Assembly: GCA_024451685.1 (NCBI GenBank)
Contig: JAMXCW010000004.1
Coordinates: forward strand, 62,001-126,000
Direction: 5' to 3'
Origin: Candidatus Bathyanammoxibius amoris
Lineage (GTDB): Bacteria > Planctomycetota > Brocadiia > Brocadiales > Bathyanammoxibiaceae
DNA: 64,000 bases
In this document: piece after piece, positions 53,090 through 58,653 of the stretch
How the letters are laid out: every line of letters starts with the position of its first letter
How positions within the stretch are numbered: the first letter of the stretch is position 1
Translations under genes and position numbers: made by a program
The notes under the pieces: generated by a model
Told to the model about the DNA's origin: nothing
Seen by the model: the letters and a program-made list of their open reading frames with translations, nothing else
The model's database searches: none

Positions 53090-53698
53090 CTAAAAGGCCC
53101 TCCTTTCGTCCATGGCATCCGCCAACACGCTGTTAGACAGGTACTCAAGGTGGCTTCCCTGCGGAATACCCCTGGCCGGACGCGTGATTTTCATATCCTT
53201 CCAGCCCAGCGCAGACAGTCTCTTCTGGATATACGCGGCGGTGGTGTCCCCCTCCACGTTAAAATTGGTGGCCAGTATAACCTCCTTCACCGTGCCGTTC
53301 CCGACCCTGTCTATGAGCTTTTCTATGGTAAGGTCTTCCGGGTGGACGTTGTCCAGGGGGGAGATATGCCCCAGCAGAACGTGATAGACCCCTTTATAGT
53401 GTCCGGTCCTCTCTATACTGAAGAAGTCTTTATGTTCTTCCACCACGCATATCACGGTGTTGTCGCGTCCCGGGTCTGAGCATACCTGACAGATTCCGTC
53501 TACCGTAACGCCGAAGCACCCGGGACAGAATTTGCTATTCTGTTTCAGCTCCTCTATGGCGCCGGAGAGCTCTCCGGCCTCCTGCGCGGGGAGCCTGAGT
53601 ATATAATAAGCCAGCCTCTCGGCAGTCTTCCGCCCTATACCGGGCATCTTCGCCAGCTCTTTTATTAACTTCTCCATATGTCGTGGATAGCCCTTCAA
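53090..53698 (-). CDS. recR: Recombination protein RecR
   Basis: A 202-residue recombination mediator working with RecO/RecF. It has the helix-hairpin-helix MPGIGRKTAERLAYYIL, a zinc finger CPGCFGVTVDGICQVC, and a Toprim domain (VICVVEEHKDFFSIE, ATNFNVEGDTTAAYI). A TTG start with AGGAA upstream gives the family-typical N-terminus (YP..MEKLIKEL); the ATG seven codons later is possible. It is in its usual place after ybaB. Confidence 0.96.
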   Translation of the reverse strand: MKGYPRHMEKLIKELAKMPGIGRKTAERLAYYILRLPAQEAGELSGAIEELKQNSKFCPGCFGVTVDGICQVCSDPGRDNTVICVVEEHKDFFSIERTGHYKGVYHVLLGHISPLDNVHPEDLTIEKLIDRVGNGTVKEVILATNFNVEGDTTAAYIQKRLSALGWKDMKITRPARGIPQGSHLEYLSNSVLADAMDERRAF

Positions 53699-57567: not shown

Positions 57568-58653
57568 CTACATAAGCCCTTTGTCCTTGAGACTTACGTA
57601 ACTCCCCGCCCCGATTATAACATGGTCGAGCACCTTGATGCCTACCACGTCCGAGACCTCTTTGAGGCGGCTGGTGATATCGATGTCATCCTGGCTGGGT
57701 GTGGGGTCGCCGCTTGGGTGGTTATGTACGAAAATGACGGAGGCGGCGGATTCCCTTATGGCGGGGGCGAAGACCTCCCTCGGGTGCACCACGCTTGAGG
57801 AAAGACTCCCGGCGGATACCTGTAAGTCCTTTATAATCTTACCCTTACTATCGAGAAGCAGGAGATGGAAGGTTTCCTGCCGCCTGTCCCTGAGCCGTTC
57901 GTGCATGTGTTCAAAGACGTCTTTGCTTGACTTCACTCGTTCTCCGCTTGTGAGAGGGGTGGCGGCGAAACGCCTGGCTATGGCCATAGCGGCCTTTACC
58001 TGGGCGGCCTTCGCGGGGCCGATGCCCTTTATCAAGGTAAGCTCACCAACGGTCTTCGTAGCTAACTTCCGAAAATCGCCATGCTTAGTCAAAATCTTCC
58101 TGGCCAGGTCCACGGCGCTTGCCTCGGGGGTGCCGTCCCTGATGATTATCCCCAAGAGTTCGGCGTCTGAGAGCGATTCCTCCCCCACGGTGATAAGCCG
58201 TTCCCGGGGCCTTTCCGCCTGAGGGAGTTCTTTTATTGTGGGCCGCCTGCGGAAGTATCTGCAGAGTTCGGTTAGGACACACTCCCCGCAGACCGGGGCT
58301 TCAAGACAGCACACTGCCTGTGGCCCGGCGGCATAGGCGGCAAAGACCGCCTTTACCACGGGTTCCCCATCACCTGAGACGGTGGAGACGTCACCAATTA
58401 TCTTCCGGATGCGTTCCCTTGCGGCGGGTGAATCCTTCGGGGTCTTCACGAGTCCTATCCGGTGGAACATCTGTCTTGCGGCAGGGTTGGTTTCAAGGGC
58501 GGCGTACTCGGCAGCAGATGGATTTTTTTCGGACACAGATAAATCTGACTGCGACGAGGTCCCGGCGGAAAATTTTTCCGTTATCAGTCTGTAGACCTTG
58601 CAGGCGTGGCTGTTACCTGACGGTGATGGCTTATCCGGACCGTTCATTATCAA
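57568..58653 (-). CDS. radC: RadC/JAB-domain protein with an N-terminal iron-sulfur-like extension
   Basis: A 361-residue RadC, about 130 longer than usual. The C-terminal part is canonical: helix-hairpin-helix (LTLIKGIGPAKAAQVKAAM) and the JAB/MPN metal motif FVHNHPSGDPTPSQDD. The extra N-terminus carries CCLEAPVCGECVLTELC (about 114-130), which fits C-x6-C-x2-C-x5-C of the endonuclease III/MutY [4Fe-4S] loop. It is preceded by FHRIGLVKTP and a helical stretch resembling the region before that loop. The catalytic HhH-GPD half of a glycosylase is absent. It suggests an Fe-S DNA-binding module joined to RadC. It is upstream of tRNA-Arg(ACG) and tadA. Confidence 0.88.
   Translation of the reverse strand: MIMNGPDKPSPSGNSHACKVYRLITEKFSAGTSSQSDLSVSEKNPSAAEYAALETNPAARQMFHRIGLVKTPKDSPAARERIRKIIGDVSTVSGDGEPVVKAVFAAYAAGPQAVCCLEAPVCGECVLTELCRYFRRRPTIKELPQAERPRERLITVGEESLSDAELLGIIIRDGTPEASAVDLARKILTKHGDFRKLATKTVGELTLIKGIGPAKAAQVKAAMAIARRFAATPLTSGERVKSSKDVFEHMHERLRDRRQETFHLLLLDSKGKIIKDLQVSAGSLSSSVVHPREVFAPAIRESAASVIFVHNHPSGDPTPSQDDIDITSRLKEVSDVVGIKVLDHVIIGAGSYVSLKDKGLM

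Follow-up and report, generated by a model that had tools for sequence, protein, structure and literature searches.

The RadC protein encoded in a 64,000-nucleotide stretch of the Candidatus Bathyanammoxibius amoris genome (the whole stretch is referred to below as the window) carries, ahead of the two domains usual for its family, an additional N-terminal domain of ~137 residues. Profile comparisons confirm its homology to the Fe-S half at the C-terminal end of HhH-GPD DNA glycosylases, and the combination is a new domain architecture of the known RadC family. To judge from this homology, the metal that it binds is very likely a [4Fe-4S] cluster, and we consider that the grafted domain most probably serves RadC as an extra DNA-binding arm. 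RadC is found in most free-living bacteria and has no agreed function, the proposals including a part in recombinational repair and, by inference from its domain company, a nuclease activity (PMC2474590, PMC5512222); the radC gene of B. subtilis is likewise of unknown function (PMC4474612).

Domain organization and genomic setting

A preliminary description of the window, made from its letters alone, had assigned the open reading frame (Table 1) to RadC with a helix-hairpin-helix (HhH) and a JAB domain. Family searches bear this out: PF20582, PF04002 and the RadC equivalog NF000642 are all matched, the last with an E of 2.5e-75 (NCBIfam), and the UPF0758_N and RadC JAB matches both exceed the curated cut-offs (Pfam/NCBIfam). 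The E...HxH...D set of the JAMM metal site is complete (E293, H310, H312 and D323). A Foldseek search with the full-length model gave significant matches to RadC and JAB structures only, with 46% identity between the JAB part and 2QLC (E 4.5e-11). Residues 1-139 matched no family above cut-off in the Pfam/NCBIfam scan. Comparison with relatives that start MTS-x-x-x-PS makes the ATG at 58647 a likelier start codon than the TTG at 58653.

The additional domain ends in CCLEAPVCGECVLTELC. The conservation pattern of its first helix is [PH]Y/x-x-x-[IV]Y-x-x-[IL], with Tyr21 nearly invariant in two 13-sequence alignments. The segment comprising residues 52-137 consists of a helix with the invariant R65-x-G67, two more helices and then the Fe-S loop. 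AlphaFold, supplied with eight sequences, predicted confident helices at residues 16-30, 57-65, 76-93 and 97-109 and modelled the loop poorly; for the isolated domain (8 sequences) the pLDDT was 69, falling to about 50 in the loop, and the first helix was placed at residues 10-24. The C-x6-C-x2-C-x5-C spacing given in the preliminary description corresponds to C115, C122, C125 and C131. C116 is an additional cysteine, because a sister protein (L003) has a single cysteine with the same x6 spacing. Among the window's stop-to-stop frames of 100 aa or more, no other matches the motif, and it was reproduced in none of 20,000 shuffles of the RadC protein.

Between positions 53093 and 59472 of the window the gene order is recR, ebfC/ybaB, dnaX, tRNA-Ser, tadA, tRNA-Arg, radC, DUF190 and crcB, and most of these neighbours also surround radC in other family members. 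Gene context revealed no functional partner beyond this conserved neighbourhood of recR, ebfC/ybaB, dnaX, tadA, DUF190 and crcB.

Table 1. Features of the window RadC gene (window positions; residue numbers refer to the encoded protein)
Feature	Position	Strand	Remarks
RadC coding sequence with N-terminal Fe-S domain	57568..58653	-	361 aa, stop included
N-terminal helix, residues 16-30 (SHACKVYRLITEKFS)	58564..58608	-	AlphaFold helix; alignment conservation
EndoIII/Tag-type C-terminal segment, residues 52-137	58243..58500	-	hhalign to EndoIII and L149; hmmsearch against PDB
Putative Fe-S cluster loop, C115-x6-C122-x2-C125-x5-C131	58261..58311	-	Invariant in 37/37; sub-threshold PF10576 match
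UPF0758_N helix-hairpin-helix domain of RadC, residues 140-217	58003..58236	-	PF20582, E 1.8e-27
RadC JAB (JAMM) domain, residues 241-360	57574..57933	-	PF04002, E 4.5e-45
JAMM metal motif HNHPSG...D, residues 310-323	57685..57726	-	Intact in window protein

Relationship to Fe-S DNA glycosylases

Searches with the single N-domain sequence (phmmer against the PDB and tblastn against plasmids) gave no useful match, so a family profile was required. Comparison of the N-domain profile with an EndoIII alignment (hhalign) found similarity over 75 collinear columns (probability 58-89%, P 4e-6 to 1e-4), which in EndoIII run from the helix past the catalytic Asp through the whole of the cluster loop. 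The stretch preceding the loop had been described as resembling EndoIII/MutY, and this likeness persists with the loop removed: after it had been cut from both profiles, the same segment was aligned with a score of 23-28, compared with no more than 13-15 in 100 column shuffles. When a profile of 33 N-domains was searched against the PDB (hmmsearch), the best 12 matches were all EndoIII, MutY, ROS1 or Mig (best E 9e-4) and spanned the R-x-G helix and the cluster loop. The helix order of the shallow AlphaFold model is compatible with the C-terminal half of EndoIII; Foldseek with the isolated-domain model, which is shallow and of middling confidence, gave no significant PDB match. In HhH-GPD Fe-S glycosylases, an N-terminal helix packs against the Fe-S domain.

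The Pfam scan found no PF00730 match in the protein, in agreement with the preliminary description, according to which the active-site half of the glycosylase is missing; the position of the catalytic Asp is occupied by N, D, S, G or other residues in the relatives. The Pfam model of the EndoIII Fe-S loop, PF10576, scores 12.5-14.4 bits in the window protein, below its gathering score of 20.5, and at most 19.6 bits among the matches listed for relatives (10 relatives), all below the cut-off. With the window protein and ten relatives falling short in this way, the architecture is easily overlooked.

The joining of an EndoIII-type Fe-S module to RadC thus stands as far as homology is concerned, but the closest relative found is not EndoIII itself. 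It lies instead at the C-terminal end of a Tag-type glycosylase (L149:884-1684, - strand), where a Tag core (residues 45-172; PF03352, E 1.5e-13) is followed by an Fe-S segment (residues 177-263). The N-domain profile matched this segment with an E of 2.3e-11 in hmmsearch and a probability of 97% in hhalign (P 3e-11); the same protein was recovered independently at 7e-12 in a whole-genome search, and blastp aligned it with the window N-domain at 28% identity over 83 residues. Since the Fe-S segment of L149 lies after the catalytic core, as in EndoIII, the arrangement is most simply explained by RadC having taken up a detached Fe-S part, and the direction of transfer would then be from glycosylase to RadC.

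The pairing of PF03352 with an EndoIII-like Fe-S tail is unexpected for Tag enzymes; one intact protein of this kind (L149) and one fragment (in L083) were seen. Planctomycete EndoIII-like proteins with a cluster loop were also encountered (L151, L152, L158 and L159). In two of them, L151 and L158, the C-terminal tail is histone-like and rich in lysine and alanine; L158 apparently lacks the catalytic Lys/Asp.

Distribution and conservation of the domain

The fusion had been regarded as lineage-specific, which proved to be wrong. With the 33-sequence profile, the N-domain was found on RadC in about 40 of the 392 Planctomycetota genomes sampled, belonging to at least 14 families (E 1e-9 or better, plus one at 3e-9; L149 excluded), and much of the order to which the window belongs is without it. 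Among the 62 genomes of the order that were searched, the full-length architecture was found in two families, the window's own and another represented by Candidatus Anammoxibacter; in the order's largest family RadC begins directly before the HhH domain. An eight-sequence profile detected the same architecture in further families of the class, and a 13-sequence profile detected it across the phylum. Weak profile matches in frames of 203-300 aa were mostly to glycosylases and not to RadC. Many RadC proteins, on the other hand, lack the domain, and some form of RadC is present in 67 of 73 genomes of the class.

From this distribution, the Fe-S domain on RadC looks old within the Planctomycetota. 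A tree of the RadC core requires two changes to account for its presence and absence. As the domain is widespread on deep branches, both are read as losses, one in a large family (f3) and one in genome G001, so that the domain has apparently been lost twice within the window's order. The radC of G001 is located before a chorismate synthase gene, the same position as that of the domain-keeping radC of its sister G002. No remnants of the domain were found beside RadC genes that lack it, including upstream of the G001 radC.

In G002 (Candidatus Anammoxibacter; locus L187) there are 13 RadC-like matches, of which one includes the Fe-S domain and the majority of the rest cover the JAB part alone. 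At L082:1228-2325 (+ strand) the RadC N-domain is split over two reading frames, representing a frameshift either in the gene or in the assembly.

Alignment of the first eight N-domains, with identity down to 29%, left the four cysteines, R-x-G and a few other residues invariant; R65, G67 and the four cysteines remain invariant across 33-37 sequences with a mean identity of 25%. The spacing between the first two cysteines is x5 in most relatives, compared with x6 in the window protein. The cysteines are retained in close homologues, and indeed in all 37 of the aligned RadC relatives. In the same set the JAMM glutamate is replaced by Asp in five, the HxH pair is gone in one and the second HhH glycine is gone in 14. 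With the cysteines kept throughout while the JAMM and HhH motifs decay in some members, the cluster site is the most constant feature of the family. The proteins with Asp in place of the JAMM glutamate and with their Fe-S cysteines retained are L102, L107, L111, L112 and L116; the HxH pair is gone in L116. The dN/dS ratio is 0.17-0.31 for the N-domain versus 0.04-0.07 for the RadC core; the N-domain is therefore under purifying selection, while evolving faster than the core.

Proposed function and comparison with known systems

The grafted module would comprise the N-terminal helix, the three C-terminal helices and the cluster loop of an EndoIII/Tag-type enzyme, the six-helix barrel having been omitted. 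The cluster would serve to fold the arm, which would hold duplex DNA beside RadC's own HhH domain, and the JAMM site (a nuclease according to earlier proposals) would thereby be positioned on the DNA. Clusters of the EndoIII type are [4Fe-4S] (PMC9266487). From its domain company, a nuclease activity has been suggested for the JAB domain of RadC (PMC3482391, PMC5512222), a proposal that a DNA-gripping Fe-S arm before the HhH and JAB domains would fit. The N-domain is likely to bind DNA. A close copy of the EndoIII DNA contact, in which basic loop residues face the phosphates, is argued against by the loop itself: K or R is present in 20 of 37 loops, and basic residues are absent from the other 17, the window protein (CLEAPV) included.

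Because these basic residues are inconsistently kept, we leave redox sensing as a rival and not as the main claim. The Fe-S domain might be a sensor of redox state or damage, with charge transfer along DNA, or damage to the cluster by oxidation or NO, altering its DNA affinity and so switching the RadC metal site on or off; we regard this as unlikely, though worth weighing. In the homologous EndoIII and MutY, oxidation of the cluster has been reported to tighten DNA binding 100-1000 fold, the meaning of which is debated (PMC9266487), and by analogy it is possible that the oxidation state tunes DNA affinity in RadC. Retention of the cysteines in proteins whose JAMM and HhH motifs are degenerate is consistent with a sensor, as is the absence of the domain from one large family of the order; however, that family copes without it, and the redox behaviour of the EndoIII Nth2 from D. 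radiodurans is DNA-independent (PMC9266487), so that homology does not imply sensing. It is rather doubtful whether the RadC of Planctomycetota could be a redox-gated DNA-processing enzyme, with the Fe-S module finding or gripping damaged DNA through redox signalling of the kind proposed for EndoIII and MutY and placing the JAMM site as a nuclease. If it were, those members of the order that have lost the domain would be lineages in which this control had been replaced or given up.

A role as a protein-interaction or folding element, kept for the stability of RadC and with no part in DNA binding, also seems improbable. On average the cluster region carries almost no net charge, its loop is not consistently basic and the domain evolves faster than the core, all as might be expected of such an element; against this, the characterized relatives of the module named in PMC9266487 are all DNA enzymes and the domain directly precedes the DNA-binding HhH domain. 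Much less probable still is a structural knuckle in which the four cysteines hold zinc or another single metal and the likeness to the EndoIII loop is convergent. Four-cysteine loops of short spacing do bind zinc, the prevailing x5 spacing differs from the x6 of the EndoIII loop and PF10576 remains below threshold, but the similarity extends into the sequence before the loop and persists when the loop is cut out, and the strong match to L149 is to a full-length glycosylase with the segment in its native position. An artefact of gene calling or assembly that fused an upstream frame to RadC, for which a start codon uncertain by two codons might be cited, is refuted by the comparative data, since the same architecture recurs phylum-wide in independent assemblies and is under purifying selection.

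The presence of a glycosylase Fe-S module, conserved over the phylum immediately before the HhH and JAB domains, is strong contextual evidence that RadC acts on DNA. The module offers an experimental handle on RadC through colour, redox state and cysteine mutants, and it shows that a glycosylase Fe-S domain can be transferred intact to a non-glycosylase enzyme. A search of the open literature (subscription papers being outside it) for RadC with iron-sulfur or 4Fe-4S found no paper.

With the RadC/UPF0758 family (PF04002 and PF20582, NF000642; 2QLC) the window protein has in common the HhH and JAB domains, with an intact JAMM motif, whereas the family models are without its N-terminal Fe-S domain. 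The Fe-S domain of EndoIII/Nth and MutY (PF10576) shares with the N-domain the R-x-G helix, the helices that follow and the C-x6-C-x2-C-x5-C loop. In contrast to these enzymes, the N-domain has neither the six-helix barrel nor the catalytic Lys, the Asp position is variable, the loop in RadC is usually one residue shorter and the module stands at the N-terminus of another enzyme. The Tag-type L149 has the same loop spacing and helix order, but keeps the Tag catalytic core, of which the RadC N-domain has no counterpart. That the module is separable is seen in the plant enzymes DME and ROS1, whose EndoIII core is split and rearranged and includes the cluster loop (PMC9266487); unlike the window RadC, these enzymes remain glycosylases and have no JAB domain.
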